Shown here: positions 3,448 through 34,884 of the stretch, piece by piece
How positions within the stretch are numbered: the first letter of the stretch is position 1
Layout: each line of letters opens with the position of its first letter
NCBI RefSeq assembly: GCF_020883495.1
Contig: NZ_CP086610.1
Coordinates: 3,489,001-3,553,000 of the forward strand
Origin: Shinella zoogloeoides
GTDB lineage: Bacteria > Pseudomonadota > Alphaproteobacteria > Rhizobiales > Rhizobiaceae
DNA: 64,000 bases
Direction of reading: 5' to 3'
Program-made: the position numbers and the translations under genes
The notes under the pieces: model-generated
The model's database searches: none
What the model saw: only the letters and a program-made list of their open reading frames with translations
Told to the model about the DNA's origin: nothing

Positions 3448-3530
3448 GAAATTCGGCATCCTTCCCGGATATTGAAGAATTCCTCTCGGCTTACCATCAT
3501 ATAGGGACGTCGGCGCAGCCTGGAAAGCGC

Positions 3531-3546
3531 TGATTCACGTGAAACG
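3531..3546. promoter_or_regulatory. parS: parS-like ParB-binding site 1
   Basis: TGATTCACGTGAAACG matches the parS consensus TGTTTCACGTGAAACA at 14 of 16 positions, with the central TTCACGTGAA intact. It lies between the SdhAF4-like gene and htpX. It is the outlying site, about 28 kb from the predicted origin, and the weakest of the five. Confidence 0.65.
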
Positions 3547-3606
3547 CGCCCTTGAAAACAAGGGCGGAGCAAGCCGGCGGGAAGGCCGGACAGGAGTCGA
3601 AGACCC

Positions 3607-4572
3607 ATGAACATCGTTCGCACAGCCATGCTGCTCGCCGTCATGACGGCGCTTTTCATGGGGGTGGGCCTGCTCATCGGCGGCAAGGGCGGCATGATGA
3701 TCGCGCTGCTCGTCGCGGTCGCCATGAACTTCTTCTCCTACTGGAACTCCGACCGCATGGTGCTGTCCATGTACGGCGCCAAGGAGGTCGACGAGCGCTC
3801 GGCGCCGGAATATTACGGCATCGTGCGCGACCTTGCGGCGCGCGCCGGCCTGCCCATGCCGCGCGTCTTCGTCATCAACAGCGACCAGCCGAATGCCTTT
3901 GCCACCGGCCGCAACCCGCAGAACGCCGCCGTCGCCGCCTCCACCGGCCTTCTCCAGGCGCTGAGCTACGAGGAAGTGGCGGGCGTGATGGCGCATGAAC
4001 TCGCCCATATCCAGAACCGCGACACACTGACCATGACGCTGACGGCGACGATTGCCGGCGCGATCTCCATGCTCGCCAACTTCGCCATGTTCTTCGGCGG
4101 CGGCCACAACCGCGAGAACAACAACCCGCTCGGCTTCATCGGCGTGCTGATCGCCATGATCGTCGCACCCTTCGCCGCCATGCTGGTGCAGATGGCCATC
4201 AGCCGCACGCGCGAATATTCCGCCGACAGGCGCGGCGCGGAAATCTGCGGCAACCCGCTCTGGCTCGCCTCGGCGCTGAAGAAGATCGCCATTGCCGCCG
4301 GCCGCATCCCCAACGACGCCGCCGAGCACAACCCGGCGACGGCCCATATGTTCATCATCAATCCGCTCTCGGGCGAGCGCATGGACAACCTGTTCTCCAC
4401 CCATCCGAACACGGAAAACCGCATCGCCGCGCTGCAGGAAATGGCGCAGGGCATGCAGGCGCGCTCGACGGAACCCGTCCGGGCTGATAATCCGGTGCGC
4501 AAATCGCGCTCCGTACCGACGACGGGCTGGGGACGCGGTGGTTCCGAACCACCTAAAGGTCCCTGGTCTTGA
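3607..4572 (+). CDS. htpX: Membrane zinc metalloprotease HtpX
   Basis: The 321-residue M48B protease has two N-terminal membrane segments (residues about 5-20 and 23-43) followed by the catalytic motif HELAH at residues 130-134. Two more hydrophobic segments lie around 145-165 and 175-195, and SADRRGAE supplies the third zinc ligand. HtpX degrades damaged inner-membrane proteins alongside FtsH on the cytoplasmic side. The C-terminal tail (about 280-321) is basic and polar. Its stop overlaps the TTG start of rsmB, so the two genes are probably translationally coupled. This pairing is common in rhizobia. Confidence 0.93.
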
Positions 4573-23724: not shown

Positions 23725-24519
<795 letters not shown>

Positions 24520-24534
24520 GGACGCCGCCAATCA

Positions 24535-25167
24535 CTAAGGTTTTCGCGAAAGATTCGACAATTCGAGCACAACGGAATCCGGCTCGACGATACTGGCATG
24601 TTTTACCAGATCGAATCTCCACCGACCAAGCGCTTTATCGATCTCCCGCTGGTAATCCCGGCCTTTGTGCAGGAAAAACCGAAGGTCGGCATTGCGTTCT
24701 GCCCAGGGCAGGCCGAACTCCATCAGAAGATCGAGATCCGCCAGGGCACGCGCCGAGATCGCATCGCATCGCTCGATGACCGCCGGAGCTTCTTCGATTC
24801 GGATCGCGTGAACCGAAGCACGTGCCCCCGTTTCCAGAATGGCCCGGCGCAGGAAGGCCGCTTTTTTGTTGTTGCTTTCGACCAGATGAACCCAGCCACC
24901 TCCGACGCCGGCCAGCAAGACCCCGGTAACGATGCCCGGAAACCCGCCGCCGCTGCCCAGATCGACCCAGTTGCGAGCCTTGGGCTGAAGCGCAAAAATC
25001 TGCGCACTGTCGACGATATGTCTGTTCCACGTTTCCGCGAGTGTGGAAGGGGCGACGAGATTGATCGTTTTCGCCCATTTCTGAAAGAGGGCGACGAAGG
25101 TGTCGAGCCGATCCAAGGTTTCACGTGAAACATCGAGATGGCTCAACGCACGGGGGAGGGCGTTCAT
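24535..25167 (-). CDS. rsmG: 16S rRNA (guanine-N7) methyltransferase RsmG (GidB)
   Basis: RsmG methylates G527 of 16S rRNA; loss gives low-level streptomycin resistance in several bacteria. The 210-residue product has the SAM site [15 protein letters not shown] (residues about 68-82) and [13 protein letters not shown]. The start overlaps the mnmG stop (ATGA). A parS-like site lies inside the coding sequence at codons 12-18 and encodes the peptide VSRET. Confidence 0.95.
25117..25132. promoter_or_regulatory. parS: parS-like ParB-binding site 2, inside rsmG
   Basis: GGTTTCACGTGAAACA matches the parS consensus at 15 of 16 bases. It lies within the 5' part of rsmG, about 0.6 kb upstream of the parA start and 6.7 kb from the predicted origin. 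Confidence 0.85.
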
Positions 25168-27053
25168 GCGTTTGCGGTCCGCTGTGTCTGGCCGTTGGAA
25201 AGGCGCTTGAGATGCGCGAGAAGGAGCGTAAGTGCCGCCGGCGTCATGCCGTCAACACGCGCGGCTTGCGCAAGATTGGATGGGCGGGCGGCCGTCAGCT
25301 TCTGACGCAACTCTATGGAGAGGCCCGGTAGCAAACCGAAATCGAAATCGTCGGGAATAAGGCGCTCTTCCTCTCGCCGCGCTTCCGAAATATCCGCCTC
25401 CTGCCGGTTCATATAAACCGCATAGCCCGCCTCGATCTCGACTGCCTCCCGGACACGGGGCGAGAAGACGCCAAGCTCTTCGGGCCAGACCTGCACCAGA
25501 CGAGCATAGTCGATATCGGGATAGGCGAGAAGATCGTAGGCGCTGCGGCGAACGCCGTCCTGGTTGATCCGGATACCGTGCGCTCCCGCCTCGTTCGGAG
25601 ACAGCTTCAAAGCCTGAAGCCGGTCGCGCGCTGCCTGCATCTCTTCCGACCACACCCTGAATCGATCTCGTCGCCCCGCGGCAACCAAACCGAGCTCAAT
25701 GCCGAGCGGCGTCAAGCGCACATCCGCATTATCCGCCCGCAGGGACAGCCGATACTCAGCTCTCGACGTGAACATACGATAGGGCTCCGTTACGCCCCGC
25801 GAGGTGAGGTCATCGATCATCACGCCGATATAGCTGTCGGTGCGGCTGAAGATGTGCCCCTCACCGTTCCCGGCACGGCGTGCCGCATTCAACCCTGCGA
25901 CAAGCCCTTGTGCCGCGGCCTCCTCATATCCCGTCGTCCCGTTGATCTGGCCGGCAAGGAAGAGACCGGGCTGTCGCTTTACCTCCAGCGCGGCGGAAAG
26001 CTCGCGAGGATCGACATGGTCATACTCGATTGCGTAGCCCGGCTGCAGGATGGAAACCTGTTCCAGCCCGGGTATCGTGCGAATGAACGCGTCCTGTACG
26101 TCCGCTGGGAGAGATGTGGAAATACCGTTCGGATAGACCGTATCGTCATCCAGTCCCTCCGGCTCCAGGAAAATCTGGTGCCCGTCCCGCTCACCGAACT
26201 TGACGATCTTGTCCTCGATCGATGGGCAGTAACGCGGGCCAACGCCCTCGATCTGCCCCGAATACATGGCGGACTTACCGATATTTTCCTCGATGATACG
26301 ATGAGTCGCCGGTGTCGTCCGCGTTACCCCGCATTCAATCTGCGGCGTGGTGATCCGATCCGTCATGAAGGAGAAGGGAACAGGTTCGTCATCCGCCGCC
26401 TGACGTCCGACAGCCGACCAATCGATCGTGCGGCCGTCGAGTCGGGCAGGGGTGCCCGTCTTCAAACGTCCAAGCCTCAATCCCAGCCGCTCGAAAGTTG
26501 CCGACAGCCCCATCGACGGTTCCTCGCCAACGCGGCCCGCCGGAATCTTTTCGTTACCGATATGAATAAGGCCACGCAGGAACGTGCCGGTCGTGATAAC
26601 AATCGCCCGGCACGCGAGGCGGCGGCCATCCTTCAGAACAATCCCGGCAATCGCATCGTTCTGGAAGGTGATATCGAAGGCATCTCCCTCGACAACATCC
26701 AGGTTCGCAATGGCCGCAATCTCGGCTTGCATGGCTTCCCGATAGAGCCGCCTATCAGCCTGGGTGCGCGGTCCACGAACCGCGGGGCCCTTTCGGCGAT
26801 TGAGCAAACGGAACTGAATGCCGGCGCGGTCGGCAACGCGGCCCATCAAACCATCAAGGGCGTCGACCTCTCGGACGAGGTGCCCCTTACCGAGGCCGCC
26901 GATAGCCGGATTGCAAGACATCACGCCAATGGTTGCCGCCTTGTGCGTCACGAGCGCCGTTCGTGCGCCAGTTCGCGCAGCAGCCGCGGCGGCTTCGACG
27001 CCTGCATGCCCGCCGCCAACCACAACGACATCGTAATCCATGATATCCGCCAT
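25164..27053 (-). CDS. mnmG: tRNA uridine-5-carboxymethylaminomethyl modification enzyme MnmG (GidA)
   Basis: MnmG is the FAD subunit of the MnmE-MnmG complex that modifies the wobble uridine (cmnm5U34) of several tRNAs. The 629 residues contain the Rossmann motif [26 protein letters not shown] with a catalytic cysteine, and the family segment [13 protein letters not shown]. The C-terminal helical domain includes [17 protein letters not shown] chose the ATG at 27053 over a GTG at 27059 because AGG is better spaced. A parS-like site is 12 bases upstream of the start. Confidence 0.96.
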
Positions 27054-27064
27054 ACTCACCTACC

Positions 27065-27080
27065 TGTTTCACGTGAAACG
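27065..27080. promoter_or_regulatory. parS: parS-like ParB-binding site 3, in the mnmG leader
   Basis: TGTTTCACGTGAAACG matches the parS consensus at 15 of 16 bases. It lies in the 66-base gap between mnmE and mnmG, 42 bases from the next site, about 4.7 kb from the predicted origin. Confidence 0.88.
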
Positions 27081-27106
27081 TTCAAAGCGACTCGCACACG
27101 TTGCAA

Positions 27107-27122
27107 TGTTTCACGTGAATCA
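27107..27122. promoter_or_regulatory. parS: parS-like ParB-binding site 4, overlapping the mnmE stop
   Basis: TGTTTCACGTGAATCA matches the parS consensus at 15 of 16 bases. Its last three bases are the complement of the mnmE stop codon, so the single departure from consensus (A to T at position 14) may reflect the coding constraint. Confidence 0.82.
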
Positions 27123-28445
27123 TTTGCCTATGCAAAACTCGGAGAAAATAACGTCAAGAAGATGCTCGACATCAACCCGACCTGTTACCCGGCCCAACGC
27201 TTGTCCCGCCAGCCGCAGGTGCTCCGCCTGTATATCCAGTCCCGCCGACTGCGCTTCCAGCGCCGACACGATATGTACGCGCGCAGTTTCAAGATGTAGC
27301 GCATGGCGTTGGCGCGTCGGCAGAGCCAGAGCGCTGCCTGACTCCATATCCGGAAGATAACTCGCCACCAGATCGAGGAGCGCAGGGATACCCTCTCCGG
27401 TTCTTACGGAAATCATAGCATCCGCCCGCACTTCACGCAAAGCAGGGAGTGCGATATCGGTTTTCGTCTGTACCCGGATAACCGGGCCGGCATAGTCGCC
27501 CAGCATCTCCTCCCAATGCGCTGCCGCATCCTCCGACAGCAGCAGAACGAGATGGGCCGTCGCCATGGAGAGCTGGGCCCGACGAATGCCCTCCCGCTCG
27601 ACAATATCATCGGTCTCGCGCAAACCCGCCGTGTCATAGAGGCGAACAGCGAAGCCGGAAAGGTCCAGATCGACATGAAGGACATCCCGGGTCGTTCCCG
27701 GAATATCCGTCACAATCGCAACGTCGCGTCGGGCGAGATGGTTGAGAAGGCTCGATTTACCGGCGTTTGGTGGGCCGGCAATCACGACATGCAGACCGTC
27801 GCGCAGGATTTCACCCGCCCGTGCGCCGGAAAGATGGTTAGTAATTTCCTCTTCCAAGGCGCGCATATCGTTCCATATGGAGCCGGCAACGGAACCGGGG
27901 ACGTCATCCTCATCGGCGAAATCAAGCTCCGCCTCGATCATTGCTCGACCATGCGTCAAACGTTTCGCCCACGAATCGTAAAGTCTGGACAAGCCACCCG
28001 ATGCCTGTTCCACCGCAAGGCGGCGCTGCATCTCGGTCTCAGCCGCGATAAGATCGGCAAGGCCCTCTACCTCGACGAGGTCCATCCGGCCATTCGTAAA
28101 GGCGCGACGTGAAAACTCGCCGGCTTCAGCGACCCGCAAGCCCTCAAACGACGCCAGCGCGGCCAGAACCGCTTTCACCGTCGCGCGGCCGCCATGAATC
28201 TGCAGTTCAGCGCAATCTTCACCCGTAAAAGAATGGGGGCCCGGAAAGAACAGGACCAGCCCTTCATCCAGCTTGTCGCCATTGCGCTTCCGAATCGAAA
28301 GCAGTGAGGCGCGGCGCGGCGCAGGAACGGAACCGCAGAGTTGTTCAACGGCATTTCGGCTCTCCGGCCCGCTCAGGCGTATCACCGCCACACCGGAGGG
28401 CAGGCCACCGCTGGAAAGAGCAAAGATGGTGTCCGTCGCGTTCAT
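27120..28445 (-). CDS. mnmE: tRNA modification GTPase MnmE (TrmE)
   Basis: MnmE is the GTPase partner of MnmG in wobble-uridine modification. The 441-residue protein has an N-terminal tetrahydrofolate-binding domain (DTIFALSSGGLPSGVAVIRLSGP), a G domain inserted in a helical domain (G1 GPPNAGKSSLLN, G3 DTAGLRET) and the C-terminal FCIGK whose cysteine is needed for modification. It is transcribed with mnmG, rsmG, parA and parB. The separate rho gene upstream has its own terminator. Confidence 0.96.
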   Translation of the reverse strand: MNATDTIFALSSGGLPSGVAVIRLSGPESRNAVEQLCGSVPAPRRASLLSIRKRNGDKLDEGLVLFFPGPHSFTGEDCAELQIHGGRATVKAVLAALASFEGLRVAEAGEFSRRAFTNGRMDLVEVEGLADLIAAETEMQRRLAVEQASGGLSRLYDSWAKRLTHGRAMIEAELDFADEDDVPGSVAGSIWNDMRALEEEITNHLSGARAGEILRDGLHVVIAGPPNAGKSSLLNHLARRDVAIVTDIPGTTRDVLHVDLDLSGFAVRLYDTAGLRETDDIVEREGIRRAQLSMATAHLVLLLSEDAAAHWEEMLGDYAGPVIRVQTKTDIALPALREVRADAMISVRTGEGIPALLDLVASYLPDMESGSALALPTRQRHALHLETARVHIVSALEAQSAGLDIQAEHLRLAGQALGRVTGRVDVEHLLDVIFSEFCIGK

Positions 28446-28509
28446 TGGATTACCGTTTCGAGGTCGAATCGATAGGGTTTGTTTCGGATTGGAATCAAAT
28501 CCATTCGCT

Positions 28510-28542
28510 CAAAAGAAAATGGCCCCGCTGGAAGGCGGGACC
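28510..28542 (-). terminator. Terminator of rho
   Basis: On the minus strand, GGTCCCGC / GCGGGGCC arms (one mismatch) with a 6-base loop are followed by a T-rich tract, 31 bases after the rho stop. This separates rho from mnmE. Confidence 0.65.
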
Positions 28543-28572
28543 ATATGTTCGAGCCTATATCAGCAAAACCGA

Positions 28573-29838
<1,266 letters not shown>

Positions 29839-30023
29839 GAATGGTCCATGCTGGTAATCGTCGGGATGGAAAAAGGCGTGCGGGTCAGGGACGAACTGCG
29901 CGGGGATGGGTGCAGCTCACTGAACGAAGACACATGCCACGAAAGATGAGATGGGCGGAAAATAGCGGTTCCCGTGCCGCCTCGCAAGGGGGCCTGCGAA
30001 TTTCGTCCGTTTTGTCGCGCCGG

Positions 30024-30563
30024 TCAGAACGGTTTGACGACGACCATGACGACGATAAGGATCATCAAAGCCGCCGGCGCCTCGTTCCAGATGCGCCACT
30101 GGCGGCCGGTCCGCAGGTTGCGATCCTCCGCAAAGGCCTGCACGGCGCGGCCGTAAAACTCGTGCACGCCGGACAGCATCAGGACGAAAAGAAGCTTGGC
30201 GTGCAGCCATCCGCCCTGAAAACCATAGACGGACCAGGCGAGATAGAGGCCGAGCAGCCAGGAAAGCCCCATGGCCGGCTGCATGATGGTGCGGTAGAGC
30301 CGCTGTTCCATCACCTTGAAAGTTTCCGACTGGGCCGAACCGGGCGGCGCGTCCGTGTGGTAGACGAACAGCCGCGGCAGGTAGAGCAGCCCCGCCATCC
30401 AGGAGATGACGGCGACGATGTGCAGCGCCTTCACCCAGAGATAGAGATCGTCCGGCGGATAGAGGATCAGCAGGAGGACGACAAACGCGAAGACGGCAAG
30501 CGCAATGCCGGCGCGCCGGCGCGCCCTGCGTCCTGCCGTTTCATCCGTCTGCTTTTCGCTCAC
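30024..30563 (-). CDS. hemJ: Protoporphyrinogen IX oxidase HemJ
   Basis: HemJ is the membrane protoporphyrinogen oxidase used by most alphaproteobacteria in place of HemY/HemG. The 179-residue product has four to five hydrophobic segments. [21 protein letters not shown] carries the conserved histidine, LPRLFVYH carries the next one, and the conserved lysine lies in [14 protein letters not shown]; these residues bind heme b and are essential in the family. Its start overlaps the hemE stop by 4 bases, so hemE-hemJ is one heme-synthesis unit transcribed away from the origin. Confidence 0.93.
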
Positions 30564-31594
30564 CGGCTTTCTCCGCGCACGCGCGCCACCAGCCGCGTGA
30601 CATGCTCGGGATCGGCCTGCGGGGTGATGCCGTGGCCGAGATTGAAGATCAGCGGTCCGTTGCCGAGTGCCTGGAGGATGGCGTCGATCCCCTCATCGAG
30701 GGCCGTGCCGCCGGCAACGACCCGCATCGGATCGAGATTGCCCTGCACCGGCCCATCCTTCTGCAGCTCGGCCGCGAAGGACAGCGGAACCGACCAGTCG
30801 AGGCCGATGGCATCGGCCCGCGTGTCCTGACGATAGGATTTGAGCTGCAGGCCCGCCCCCTTGGCGAAGGCGATGATCTTCGCCTGCGGGCGGCGTGCCC
30901 TCACCGAATCGACGATCCGTCGCACGGGGCGCACGGCATAATCGGCAAATTCCCTCTCACCGAGCACACCCGCCCAGGAATCGAAGATCTGCACCGCATC
31001 GGCGCCGGCATCGATCTGCGCCACCAGGTAATCGGCGGAAAGATCGGCAAGCACGTCGAGCAGATGCGTGAAGGCCCGAGGTTCGCGGTAAGCGAACAGC
31101 CGGGCGGGGGCCTGGTCCGGCGTTCCATGGCCGGCGATCATATAGGTCGCAACCGTCCACGGCGCCCCGCAGAAGCCGAGCAGCGCCGTTTCCTCGGGAA
31201 GGGACTGCCGGATACGGCCGACCGTTTCCATGACCGGCCTGAGATGATCCTGAACGCCATCGCCTTTCAGGGCGAAGATGCCGTCGACATCGATCGGGTC
31301 GAGCCGAGGTCCATGCCCCTCCTCGAAGCGGACATTGCGGTGAAGCGCATCGGGAATGACAAGAATATCGGAAAAGAGGATCGCCGCATCGAAGCCATAG
31401 CGGCGGATCGGCTGCAAGGTGACCTCGGTCGCCAGTTCCGGCGAATAACACAGGTCGAGAAAACTTCCCGCCGCAGCGCGCGTCGCGCGGTACTCCGGCA
31501 GATATCGTCCTGCCTGTCTCATCAGCCAGAGGGGAGGGGGAGAAACCGTCTTGCCATTCAGGACATCGACGATCTTCCGGTTTTTCGCAGCCAC
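30560..31594 (-). CDS. hemE: Uroporphyrinogen III decarboxylase
   Basis: HemE converts uroporphyrinogen III to coproporphyrinogen III by removing four carboxyl groups. The 344-residue protein shows the signature [17 protein letters not shown] near residues 20-37, and the catalytic aspartate lies in [26 protein letters not shown] and [16 protein letters not shown] are typical. The start is GTG, with GGGAG nine bases upstream. It is the first gene left of the predicted oriC; hemE next to the origin is a conserved alphaproteobacterial feature. Confidence 0.96.
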
Positions 31595-32000
31595 CGAGGG
31601 GTTCTCCCAATCATGAAATAATCTCTTTTAAAGAGGTTTCTATTTCTTAGAGTCGGTGACTATCAAGGATTAAATCCTCTCCACAGATTGCAGGTCTGCG
31701 ACAGCCGCGTGTGGACAAGGCACGGACCTGAGGGCAATTTCGGGCCGGAAATGGGGAGAGCGGGATTCTCCGTTTTGAATCAAGCAGATTCCAGCGCCTG
31801 AAGGAAGTTGCTGCCTGTGGAAAGGCTGTGGAGCGGCGCGACACTATGCCATCGGCATGAGTCTTATCCACATGCGCGCCGAATCCCTTTCCCGCTGTTT
31901 GCCGATTGTGGAAAAACCGGCACTTATCCTCTTGCCTCCGGAGCCCTCCCGCTTTTAGCTCACCGTTGTCCCGGGCGATCAACAGGGGGCGGAGGATATT
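31595..32000. other. oriC: Predicted chromosomal replication origin (oriC)
   Basis: This is the only gene-free stretch longer than 300 bases, and the genes diverge from it. It contains one perfect DnaA box (31864-31872) and close matches: TGTGGACAA at 31710 and TGTGGAAAA at 31907 (one mismatch each), CTCTCCACA at 31677, TGTGGAAAG at 31816 and TTATCCTCT at 31924 (two mismatches each). A two-mismatch box at 32000-32008 overlaps the ppsR start. Its left end is A/T-rich and holds the palindrome CTCTTT-T-AAAGAG at 31624-31635. A GAATC-N5-GATTC repeat is at 31777-31791. Origins next to hemE are known in Caulobacter and Rickettsia. Function here is inferred. Confidence 0.88.
31864..31872 (+). promoter_or_regulatory. 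Perfect DnaA box
   Basis: TTATCCACA is the exact consensus nonamer. It is the strongest of at least six DnaA-box-like nonamers in the hemE-ppsR gap. Confidence 0.85.
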
Positions 32001-32822
32001 GTGGAAAGCACCAAAAACTACTTCCATCTGCACCTCATTTCGGACTCGACGGGCGAGACGCTGATCGCGGCGGGTCGCGCGGCGGCGGCGCAGTTCCAGT
32101 CCTCCCAGGCGCTGGAACATGTCTATCCGCTCATCCGCAATCGCAAGCAGCTCATGCCCGTGCTCGACGCCATCGACGGCGCGCCGGGTATCGTGCTCTA
32201 TACGGTGGTCGACCGGGAGCTTTCCGAAATCATCGACCAGCGCTGCCGGGAGATGGGCGTGCCCTGCGTTTCCGTGCTGGAGCCGGTGATCGACCTCTTC
32301 CAGTCCTATCTCGGCGCGCCGTCACGCCGCCGGGTGGGCGCGCAGCATGTGATGAATGCGGAATATTTCGCGCGCATCGAGGCGCTCAATTTCACGATGG
32401 ATCATGACGACGGGCAATTGCCGGCCGATCTCGAGGAGGCCGATGTCATCCTCATCGGCATCAGCCGTACCTCGAAGACACCGACCAGCATCTATCTCGC
32501 CAACCGCGGCATCAAGACGGCCAATGTGCCGATCGTGCTTGGCGTGCCGCTGCCGGAGCGTCTGTCGACGGCGATCAGGCCGCTGGTTGTCGGCCTGATC
32601 GCGACAACCGACCGGATCGCCCAGGTTCGGCAGAACCGGGTGCTGGGCCAGACGCAGGATTTTCGCGGCGACGACTATATCGACCGCGCGCAGATTTCCG
32701 AGGAGCTGAAATATGCCCGCGCCATCTGCGCGCGCCACAACTGGCCGATCATCGATGTCACGCGCCGCTCCATCGAGGAAACGGCTGCCGCCATCGTTGC
32801 CCTTCGCCCCAAGCTCCGCTAA
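32001..32822 (+). CDS. ppsR: Pyruvate phosphate dikinase (or PEP synthetase) regulatory protein, DUF299/COG1806
   Basis: The 273-residue bifunctional kinase/pyrophosphorylase family inactivates its target dikinase with ADP and reactivates it with phosphate. It begins [15 protein letters not shown], and the P-loop-like [15 protein letters not shown] starts at residue 153. C-terminal [20 protein letters not shown] is also typical. The start is GTG with GGAGG upstream, and the first bases overlap a DnaA-like box. Rhizobia usually have PPDK, so PPDK is the likelier target; the dikinase is not in the window. It is the first gene right of the origin. Confidence 0.9.
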
Positions 32823-32847
32823 CCCGGAAGGGTAACGGGAGAATTCC

Positions 32848-33444
32848 ATGACGCCGCTGATCCTTGCCTCGCAAAGCCCCTTCCGCCGCATGCTGATGGA
32901 AAATGCCGGTCTGGCGTTCCGGGCGCAGGCCGCGGAAATCGACGAGCGCGCCGCCGAGGCGGCGCTTGCCGAACGCAACCCGACGCCGCAGGACGTGGCG
33001 GTAGCGCTCGCCATCGAGAAGGCGCGCGATGTGGCGGGGCGCAATCCCGGCGCGCTCGTCATCGGTTCGGACCAGACGCTTTCCCTCGAAGGTCGCGTGT
33101 TCCACAAGCCCGCCGACATGGCGGAAGCGAAGGGGCACCTCACGGCAATGTCGGGGCGGACCCATTCGCTCAATTGCGGCATCGCGCTGCTGCGCGACGG
33201 CGAGATTCTATGGAGCCATGTTTCCGTCGCCCATATGACGATGCGTCCCCTGTCGGAAGCCTTTATCGACCGCCATCTCGCGCGGGTCGGCACGCGGGTC
33301 CTGGCGAGCGTCGGAGCCTATCAGCTCGAAGGAGAGGGTGTGCAGCTCTTCGAGCGGATCGACGGCGACTACTTCACCATTCTCGGCCTGCCGCTGCTTC
33401 CCTTGCTGGCTAAACTTCGCGATCTCGGTGCTATCGATGCGTGA
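32848..33444 (+). CDS. maf: Maf family nucleotide pyrophosphatase
   Basis: The 198-residue house-cleaning phosphatase hydrolyses non-canonical or methylated NTPs. It opens [19 protein letters not shown], the Maf signature, and has the conserved VIGSDQTL with the metal-binding aspartate. The SQSP/FRR pattern suggests the YceF-like branch, but I cannot assign the substrate firmly. It lies 25 bases after ppsR, and its stop overlaps the aroE start and a parS-like site. Confidence 0.88.
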
Positions 33445-34294
33445 TTCACGTGAAACATTCGTCCCCCACGCCTTCGTCACCGGCTATCCGGTCAAGCATT
33501 CCCGCTCGCCGCTGATCCACAGCTATTGGCTGGAAACGCTTGGGCTTGAAGGATCTTACACGCGACAGGAGGTCGTGCCGGAAAACTTCGCCGGCTTCAT
33601 TGCGGGCCTCAAAAGCGGGGAATCCGGCTTCGTAGGGGGCAACATCACGATCCCCCACAAGGAGACGGCGTTCAAGCTGGCCGACCGCCCGGATGCGCTT
33701 AGCCAGGAGCTTGGCGCATCGAACACGCTCTGGATGGAAGACGGCCGGCTTCACGCGACGAATACCGACGGCTACGGTTTTCTTGCCAATCTGGATGCGA
33801 CCGCGCCGGGCTGGGACAAAACGGATCGCGCCGTCATCCTCGGGGCGGGGGGCGCGAGCCGAGCGATCATCCAGGCGGTGCGTGATCGCGGCATCGCGGA
33901 AATCCATGTGGTCAACCGCACCGCCGCCCGCGCGCAGGAACTGGCCGACCGTTTCGGGCCGAAGGTGCATGCCCACGCCATGGAGGCGCTGGCGGAGGTT
34001 TCGAAAGGGGCGGGGCTTTTCGTCAACACCACCTCGCTCGGCATGGATGGCGAAGCCGCGCCGGACTTCGACTTCTCACCGCTGGCATCCGGCGCGCTGG
34101 TGACGGATATCGTCTATGTGCCGCTCGTCACGCCGATCCTGCGTCAGGCGCAGGATCAGGGGTTCGCCATCGCCGATGGACTTGGCATGCTGTTGCATCA
34201 GGCCGCGCCCGGTTTCGAGAAATGGTTCGGCAAGCGGCCGGTCGTCGATGCCGAACTTCGCCGGCGGATCCTTGCGGACATGGAGGCGCATTGA
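33437..34294 (+). CDS. aroE: Shikimate dehydrogenase
   Basis: AroE reduces 3-dehydroshikimate to shikimate with NADPH in aromatic amino-acid synthesis. The 285-residue product has the substrate motif [20 protein letters not shown] with the catalytic lysine, NTDGYGF, and the NADP loop GAGGASRAI followed by NRTAAR. The start at 33437 overlaps the maf stop by 8 bases. Codons 3-7 are formed by a parS-like site, giving DSRET. It is translationally coupled to coaE. Confidence 0.95.
33442..33457. promoter_or_regulatory. parS: parS-like ParB-binding site 5, in the maf-aroE overlap
   Basis: TGATTCACGTGAAACA matches the parS consensus at 15 of 16 bases. Its first three bases are the maf stop codon, and the rest encodes residues 3-7 of AroE. 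It is the site closest to the predicted origin, about 1.5 kb away, and the only one to its right. Confidence 0.85.
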
Positions 34295-34884
34295 TGATCG
34301 TGCTCGGCCTCACCGGATCGATCGGAACCGGAAAATCTACCACGGCGGCGATGTTCCGAAATCTCGGCGTGCCGGTACACGATGCCGATGCAACGGTGCA
34401 TGACCTTTATCGCGGCGAAGCCGTCGCGCCCGTCGCGGCGCGCTTTCCCGAAGCGCTTGCGGATGGCGCCATCGACCGCAAGGCGCTTTCGGCAGCGCTC
34501 GCCCGCGCGCCGGAGCGGTTCGGCGAGCTGGAGGCGATCATCCATCCGCTCGTGCGGGCGCGGGAAATCGCTTTCGTCAAGGCCGAACGGCAGAAGGGGT
34601 CCCCGCTCGTGCTGCTCGACATTCCGCTGCTTTATGAAGCGGGCGGCGAAAGCCGGGTGGACAAGGTGGCGGTGGTCACCTGCGATCCGCAAACCCAGCG
34701 CCGGCGCGTGCTGGAGCGGCCCGGCATGACGGAGGAGAAATTCGCCCTCATCCTGTCGCGCCAGATGCCGGATGCGGAAAAGCGGCAACGGGCGGATTTC
34801 GTCATCGATACGGGGCGGGGGCTTGAAGCGGCGCGTAAACAGGTGGAAGAGATAATCGCGAAACTGACGGAACGGCGGAACTGA
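34294..34884 (+). CDS. coaE: Dephospho-CoA kinase
   Basis: CoaE performs the last step of coenzyme A synthesis. The 196-residue kinase begins with the P-loop [18 protein letters not shown], followed by VHDADATVHDLY with the catalytic aspartate, and LVLLDIPLLYEAG. Start and stop codons overlap with aroE and dnaQ, respectively (ATGA and TGATG junctions), so aroE-coaE-dnaQ is tightly coupled. Confidence 0.95.
   Translation: MIVLGLTGSIGTGKSTTAAMFRNLGVPVHDADATVHDLYRGEAVAPVAARFPEALADGAIDRKALSAALARAPERFGELEAIIHPLVRAREIAFVKAERQKGSPLVLLDIPLLYEAGGESRVDKVAVVTCDPQTQRRRVLERPGMTEEKFALILSRQMPDAEKRQRADFVIDTGRGLEAARKQVEEIIAKLTERRN

Follow-up and report, generated by a model that had tools for sequence, protein, structure and literature searches.

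A predicted hemE-type chromosomal replication origin between hemE and ppsR in Shinella zoogloeoides and its conserved T-rich block

Introduction

Does the gap between the genes hemE and ppsR carry the replication origin of the Shinella zoogloeoides chromosome, and which of its sequences are kept among relatives? An origin at hemE/ppsR is already known in Caulobacter and Rickettsia, so that an origin here would be an ordinary one. A sequence-only reading had proposed oriC at this place; we followed the proposal up in the window, a stretch of 64 kb (contig C1:3489001-3553000), in samples of the whole contig and in related genomes. C1 has 3,991,891 bases in a genome of 4,848,065 bases in five contigs. 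Several independent sequence signals place the origin at this one locus, and we put the probability that DnaA-dependent replication of the 3.99 Mb chromosome (C1) starts in the gap at about 0.97.

Materials and Methods

Motif counts in the gap were compared with those of 32,000 background windows, which overlapped (step 50) and were drawn from 100 stretches of the sample. Sites resembling parS (TGTTTCACGTGAAACA, at most two mismatches) were searched across the whole genome with both strands counted and the reversed string as control. Strand bias along C1, on which the gap lies at 3.52 Mb, was measured twice: initially on 60 stretches (21% of C1) together with the 64 kb window, then in a larger sample of 101 pieces (1,695,000 bases, 42.5% of C1). 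Bias at 4-fold sites was taken from 1223 ORFs given by a simple finder and corrected for coding strand.

The family sample consisted of 61 genomes including S. zoogloeoides, 44 with ppsR and 17 with no ppsR match. The 80 named loci were the best matches of a longer list and may overlap the family sample. In the class-wide sample, ppsR was present in 64 of 96 genomes (S. zoogloeoides included); the best-scoring 29 other loci were compared, 27 of which had hemE adjacent. DnaA-trio modules were sought in the window as a box (at most two mismatches) lying 0-16 bp from at least three trios. The verdict on oriC was made without the crude gene caller, which missed genes.

Results and Discussion

The features of the locus are collected in Table 1. 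As had been stated from the sequence alone, transcription diverges from the gap in both directions; GC content is 54% for the gap plus the first 9 bases of ppsR. The further claim that this is the longest gene-free stretch of the window is plausible. The crude gene caller gave four longer gaps, but ORF lists showed that two of them (24520-27515 and 34295-34883) contain genes and that the other two shrink, 3460-3965 to about 147 bp and 28113-28572 to about 127 bp. Rfam models, applied to 30000-33500 with gathering thresholds, returned zero matches.

Table 1. Features of the predicted origin region of S. zoogloeoides (window coordinates)
Feature	Position	Strand	Details
Predicted oriC, hemE-ppsR intergenic region	31595..32000		406 bp; box cluster, parS, strand bias, gap length in relatives
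hemE, left flank	30560..31594	-	Pfam URO-D 1.7e-108
ppsR (COG1806/DUF299 kinase-pyrophosphorylase), right flank	32001..32822	+	Pfam Kinase-PPPase 1.2e-89
AT-rich stretch, probable DNA unwinding element	31600..31650		70% AT at 31600-31649; palindrome CTCTTTTAAAGAG at 31623-31635
Most conserved block TTTCTATTTCTTAGAGTCGGT at AT-rich edge	31637..31657	+	Alignment of family genomes and named relatives
GAGTC, CcrM (GANTC) site inside conserved block	31650..31654		GA[GC]TC in family and named relatives
DnaA box CTCTCCACA	31677..31685	+	2 mismatches
DnaA box TTGTCCACA	31710..31718	-	1 mismatch
DnaA box CTTTCCACA	31816..31824	-	2 mismatches; minus-strand core near same ppsR distance in 11/44 (186-bp bin)
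Weak DnaA box CGCTCCACA	31827..31835	-	TCCACA-core scan
Exact DnaA box TTATCCACA	31864..31872	+	Plus-strand core at 132 bp from ppsR in 19/44
DnaA box TTTTCCACA	31907..31915	-	1 mismatch; minus-strand core 96 bp before ppsR in 35/44, most often kept
DnaA box CTTTCCACA overlapping ppsR start codon	32000..32008	-	Minus-strand core at 0 in 11/44
Five further GANTC sites	31764, 31777, 31787, 31859, 31881 (span 31764..31885)		Motif scan
ParA-type ATPase gene, about 7 kb left of oriC	23725..24531	-	Pfam AAA_31, CbiA, MipZ
parS-like	25117..25132		1 mismatch; -6.7 kb
parS-like	27065..27080		1 mismatch; -4.7 kb
parS-like	27107..27122		1 mismatch; -4.7 kb
parS-like	33442..33457		1 mismatch; +1.6 kb
parS-like	3531..3546		2 mismatches; -28 kb

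The DnaA boxes that the sequence-only reading had listed were all recovered: the perfect one, both one-mismatch boxes and several two-mismatch boxes, those on the minus strand at 31816 and 32000 and on the plus strand at 31677 and 31924. The TCCACA core occurs seven times in 415 bp, a count that none of the 32,000 sampled overlapping windows reaches (0 cores in 29,181 windows, 1 in 2,647, 2 in 167, 3 in 3 and the maximum, 4, in 2). Boxes with at most one mismatch number three in the gap, equalled in 1 of 32,000 background windows. Over the whole window, the exact and one-mismatch boxes are weakly unusual, with 7 seen against 3.55 expected and as many in 7 of 100 shuffles. Genome-wide (4.85 Mb), exact TTATCCACA was found four times, once in the gap, against 21 times for the reversed-string control, and with at most one mismatch 244 times against 394; since both counts lie below the control, strong boxes are scarce in the S. 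zoogloeoides genome. Within 500 bp of each of the three other exact sites, at most one additional TCCACA core is present (0 or 1).

Two side observations concern single boxes. The scarcity of the exact string gives the impression that the genome avoids strong DnaA boxes away from the origin, and the box lying on the ppsR start codon could tie ppsR expression to DnaA.

The arrangement is kept among relatives. By sequence, the closest named records belong to Shinella: ppsR is 94% identical to that of Shinella kummerowiae, and 6 kb of DNA match Shinella sp. PSBB067 at 85%. The hemE-ppsR gap measures 374-448 bp in all 44 ppsR-bearing family genomes; hemE is adjacent in 78 of the best-matching 80 named loci, with a gap of 370-450 bp in 71 of these 78. 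Thirty family gaps together hold 103 TCCACA cores, where shuffles gave 6.0 on average and 15 at most, and several cores recur at set distances from ppsR (Table 1). Counting against the origin reading, four of the 44 family gaps are poor in the core, with none in L177 and one each in L122, L139 and L174.

Among the sampled records, hemE was kept in all 17 ppsR-less family genomes (L146-L162), with the conserved block beside it in 15. The record CP090106.1, titled Sinorhizobium meliloti Ak57 'plasmid pSymB' (L289, L290), is 3.72 Mb long, with hemE and ppsR lying across the ends of the record; it looks like a mislabelled chromosome. JAHREI010000001.1 (L271), titled Bacillus subtilis SK6B4, contains a rhizobial hemE-origin-ppsR region and is probably mislabelled or contaminated.

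The parS search revealed six sites in the genome and none for the control. All six lie on C1 between 3,492,531 and 3,570,334, within 50 kb of the gap, at offsets of -28.3, -6.7, -4.7, -4.7, +1.6 and +49.5 kb from oriC, the four best spanning -6.7 to +1.6 kb; a ParA-type ATPase gene is also close by (Table 1). In Hyphomonas neptunium, the marker-frequency peak lies near hemE with parAB about 7 kb off, according to the accessible part of the source (PMC6650430).

A skew minimum at the gap had been predicted, and the skew was computed on the 42% sample of the chromosome. Raw GC skew fits an origin at 3.56 Mb, and the position of the gap, 3.52 Mb, ranks third of 200 positions for raw GC, raw TA and raw GC+TA alike. 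Raw GC skew placed the terminus at 1.22 Mb, raw TA skew the origin at 3.54 and the terminus at 1.66 Mb, and GC+TA the two at 3.56 and 1.58 Mb. For T-A bias at 4-fold sites, one switch falls at 3.52-3.54 Mb and the return switch at 1.52-1.54 Mb, the point opposite the gap being 1.52 Mb, and 163 of 200 bootstraps fell in the 40-kb bin at 3.52 Mb. Against the exact position of the gap stand the 4-fold G-C bias, with the origin at 3.56 Mb and the terminus at 0.82-0.96 Mb, and likewise the sum of the two 4-fold biases (3.56 Mb, with 162 of 200 bootstraps at 3.56 and 2 of 200 at 3.52 Mb); the 4-fold GC terminus and the raw GC terminus are also not in an opposite position. Gene orientation gave 3.46 Mb, and non-coding sequence gave 3.62 Mb by TA and 0.12 Mb by GC. 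Thus, all measures of the larger sample except non-coding GC point within about 100 kb of the gap. A search for dif with one pattern yielded a single string with five mismatches near 1.5 Mb, which was rejected.

These data also bear on the possibility that replication begins at dnaA, with the hemE-ppsR gap acting as a DnaA-titration or regulatory site. The dnaA gene lies outside the window, as had been noted, at C1:532, about 472 kb from the gap. Replication starts at dnaA in many bacteria, and the raw GC skew of the first, smaller sample was best fitted at 3.92-3.98 Mb, near dnaA; the noise in this sample was such that positions all the way from 3.52 Mb past base 1 to 0.24 Mb fitted well, the next best being 3.56 Mb, which is where the raw GC skew of the larger sample places the origin. 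Moreover, just two TCCACA cores occur within 3 kb either side of C1 base 1, parS-like sites are absent near dnaA, the 4-fold strand bias is weaker there, and 53.4% of the 1223 ORFs would be on the leading strand, against 55.4% for an origin at hemE/ppsR. We therefore regard a start at dnaA as very improbable. A Bac_DnaA profile search gave 22 further matches on C1, C2, C3 and C4, nearly all in sets of identical score, which we presume may be multi-copy transposon ATPases (IstB-like).

The DnaA-core cluster, the parS cluster, the strand bias, the conserved gap and box positions and a dnaA gene without a box cluster thus all agree with the earlier placement of oriC between hemE and ppsR. A switch in strand bias and a parS cluster nearby, as in bacterial chromosomal origins, are both present. 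Judged by its place, its box cluster beyond chance and its AT-rich element, the locus is classified as a predicted hemE-type alphaproteobacterial oriC. Strict CtrA sites (TTAA-N7-TTAA) were absent from 31595-32009, and the gap gave no match to the strict IHF consensus WATCAANNNNTTR, a loose pattern. Because CtrA sites are absent, the locus is assigned to the hemE type and not to the Caulobacter-type, CtrA-controlled origins. To our knowledge, not every alphaproteobacterial origin requires CtrA sites. One Wolbachia origin without CtrA sites is described in the accessible part of PMC1914354.

The A/T-richer left edge with a palindrome, another item of the sequence-only reading, is present as well, and a second palindrome, AGGATTAAATCCT, lies at 31666. 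The box adjoining this element (GGTGACTAT) is poor in S. zoogloeoides, with four mismatches from TGTGGATAA by eye, which counts against the origin reading. Alignment revealed that the best-conserved columns of the locus are not DnaA boxes; they form the string TTTCTnTTTCTTAGAGTC[GT]GT beside hemE (31637-31657). The block TTTCTATTTCTTAGAGTCGGT has one match in the whole genome even at up to three mismatches, and a chromosome-sized S. meliloti record carries it letter-identical beside hemE. The pentamer closing the block is GAGTC in 34, GACTC in 22 and another string in 5 of the 61 family genomes (GA[GC]TC, or GASTC, in 56/61); among the 78 of the best-matching 80 named loci, the respective counts are 65, 7 and 6 (72/78). 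Since GAGTC and GACTC are reverse complements of each other, the kept feature is a GANTC site readable from both strands. Such a two-way site would be easier to understand as the target of a methylase than as a directional protein-binding site. A second GANTC lies at most 12 bp upstream of the block's site in 31 of the 61 family genomes and 36 of the 78 named loci with hemE adjacent, S. zoogloeoides being without one. The letters that follow the block are GGTGGATAGC, a near inverted DnaA box, in 6 of the 61 family genomes and GGTGACTATC, a poor box, in S. zoogloeoides.

As a matter of sequence, the T-rich GASTC block is a Rhizobiaceae-wide feature. The most conserved origin sequence of the sampled Rhizobiaceae is a T-rich block with a CcrM site, a less expected one than a DnaA box. 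No description of the block was found among the papers listed from the literature searched, in which coverage of subscription journals was thin, and one may well be in print.

Could the block serve mainly as the hemE promoter, perhaps regulated by CcrM/GcrA, and not belong to the origin? The GASTC of the block is placed 43-97 bp upstream of hemE (median 54.5, n=56), the block stands beside hemE also in 15 of the 17 family genomes without ppsR, and a TTGATA-N18-TAGAAA arrangement can be fitted by eye on the minus strand in S. zoogloeoides. On the other hand, the -35-like CAAGG is not common to the relatives, many of which show CGGGG or different letters at this place. In L182, L186 and a Bradyrhizobium (L287), where the flank retrieved contained no recognised hemE, similar AT-rich/TNG or GANTC modules, judged by eye, adjoin ppsR; this speaks for a module that is tied to the origin instead of to hemE. 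We consider the promoter explanation unlikely, while giving it some weight, and prefer to view the block as part of the origin.

In the class-wide sample, the AT-rich part of the best-scoring other loci is often followed by runs of GTN, i.e., 5'-TNG-3' (3'-GNT-5'), and then often, by eye, by a spacer rich in C, letters resembling TGTGGATAA, and GGGGATT. At least three GTN occur in 15 of the 27 loci with hemE adjacent among the best-scoring 29 (shuffles: mean 0.94, maximum 5), against 0 of the 61 family genomes; such runs were found in 9 of the 78 named loci with hemE adjacent (eight Mesorhizobium, one Phyllobacterium), and in the Mesorhizobium loci the run sits on the far side of GASTC. At least four perfect TNG triplets lie 0-16 bp from box-like letters in 7 of these 27 loci and in none of 200 shuffle rounds, with G as the middle base 14 times, T 10 times and A 9 times. 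In the DnaA-trio as published, 3'-GAT-5', the middle A is conserved, but Pelliciari et al. suspected that deviant trios lacking it exist (PMC8287927, in the part of the article available). The TNG repeats would supply actual examples of such trios. In the window itself, the longest run was four trios, away from the AT-rich side, and was reached by 16 of 300 shuffles; a strict DnaA-trio module was thus not convincing and was set aside.

The GANTC motif is abundant in the gap as a whole, with six sites, a number equalled in 31 of the 32,000 background windows, and 30 family gaps total 141 sites against a shuffle mean of 47 (maximum 70). One could imagine that methylation of the block's GASTC times or gates unwinding, like the Dam sites of E. 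coli oriC, where GATC sites surround TCTTATTAG before TGTGGATAA. The near-universal GASTC with a middle base of only G or C, together with the frequent second GANTC upstream, is in keeping with this idea, and over-expression of CcrM in Caulobacter leads to extra chromosomes, as cited in the accessible part of PMC3973325. The same part of that article reports, however, that Caulobacter lacking ccrM keeps normal initiation control (PMC3973325), and in A. tumefaciens, according to the available text of PMC11514494, CcrM depletion or excess affects ori2 while differences at ori1 are not significant. Covariation gives no support either: all 61 family genomes have ccrM, the five that lack the site among them, and the comparison is therefore uninformative. 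Methylation control of unwinding at the block is a guess that we hold to be rather improbable, with the published CcrM data mostly opposing a strong effect; a subtle timing role may still be compatible with the published results.

An equally doubtful proposal is that the unwinding module of Rhizobiaceae oriC was rebuilt: the TNG repeats that many other Alphaproteobacteria have at this place, a form of DnaA-trio with a relaxed middle base, would have given way to a T-rich block whose box-facing edge bears a CcrM site. Hemimethylation after firing would then alter the opening of that edge, and the site would be a separately evolved CcrM counterpart to what Dam sites are in the unwinding element of E. 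coli. The block would make an influence of CcrM on DnaA-dependent initiation testable by a one-site change in a laboratory symbiont.

From the position and anatomy read in the sequence, binding of DnaA, unwinding and firing may be pictured as follows. DnaA would load on the cluster of mostly weak boxes at 31677-32008, and its filament would extend to the AT-rich element on the hemE side, at about 31600-31660. Strand separation is predicted at the conserved T-rich block, 31637-31657, from where two forks would depart in opposite directions; ParAB would then pull the nearby parS sites apart.

Comparison with Known Origins

One of the closest counterparts is the chromosomal origin of S. meliloti, which was reportedly mapped experimentally beside hemE by Sibley et al. 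in 2006. The flanks, the spacing and the conserved block are the same in both species; the letters of the DnaA boxes differ, and the printed S. meliloti stretch is, by eye, without an exact TTATCCACA.

The Caulobacter oriC has five DnaA boxes, a 40 bp AT-rich part, one IHF site and five CtrA sites, as stated in the accessible part of PMC1914354. With origins of the Caulobacter/Rickettsia type, the Shinella locus shares the two flanking genes (hemE and COG1806), several DnaA boxes and an AT-rich part. In contrast, the Shinella gap has no strict CtrA or IHF match and carries its own T-rich GASTC block.

As in the basal unwinding system of DnaA box and DnaA-trio, in so far as it is described in the part of PMC8287927 available, the AT-rich unwinding side adjoins the boxes. 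The Shinella window differs in having no convincing run of trios, while other Alphaproteobacteria have TNG repeats with a variable middle base.

In oriC of E. coli K-12 (L207), GATC sites surround TCTTATTAG before TGTGGATAACAAGGATCC. These GATC sites act with Dam/SeqA. The DUE-R1 module of E. coli and the predicted Shinella origin have a T-rich strand, methylation sites and a box in the same order, with CcrM GANTC in Shinella where E. coli has Dam GATC.
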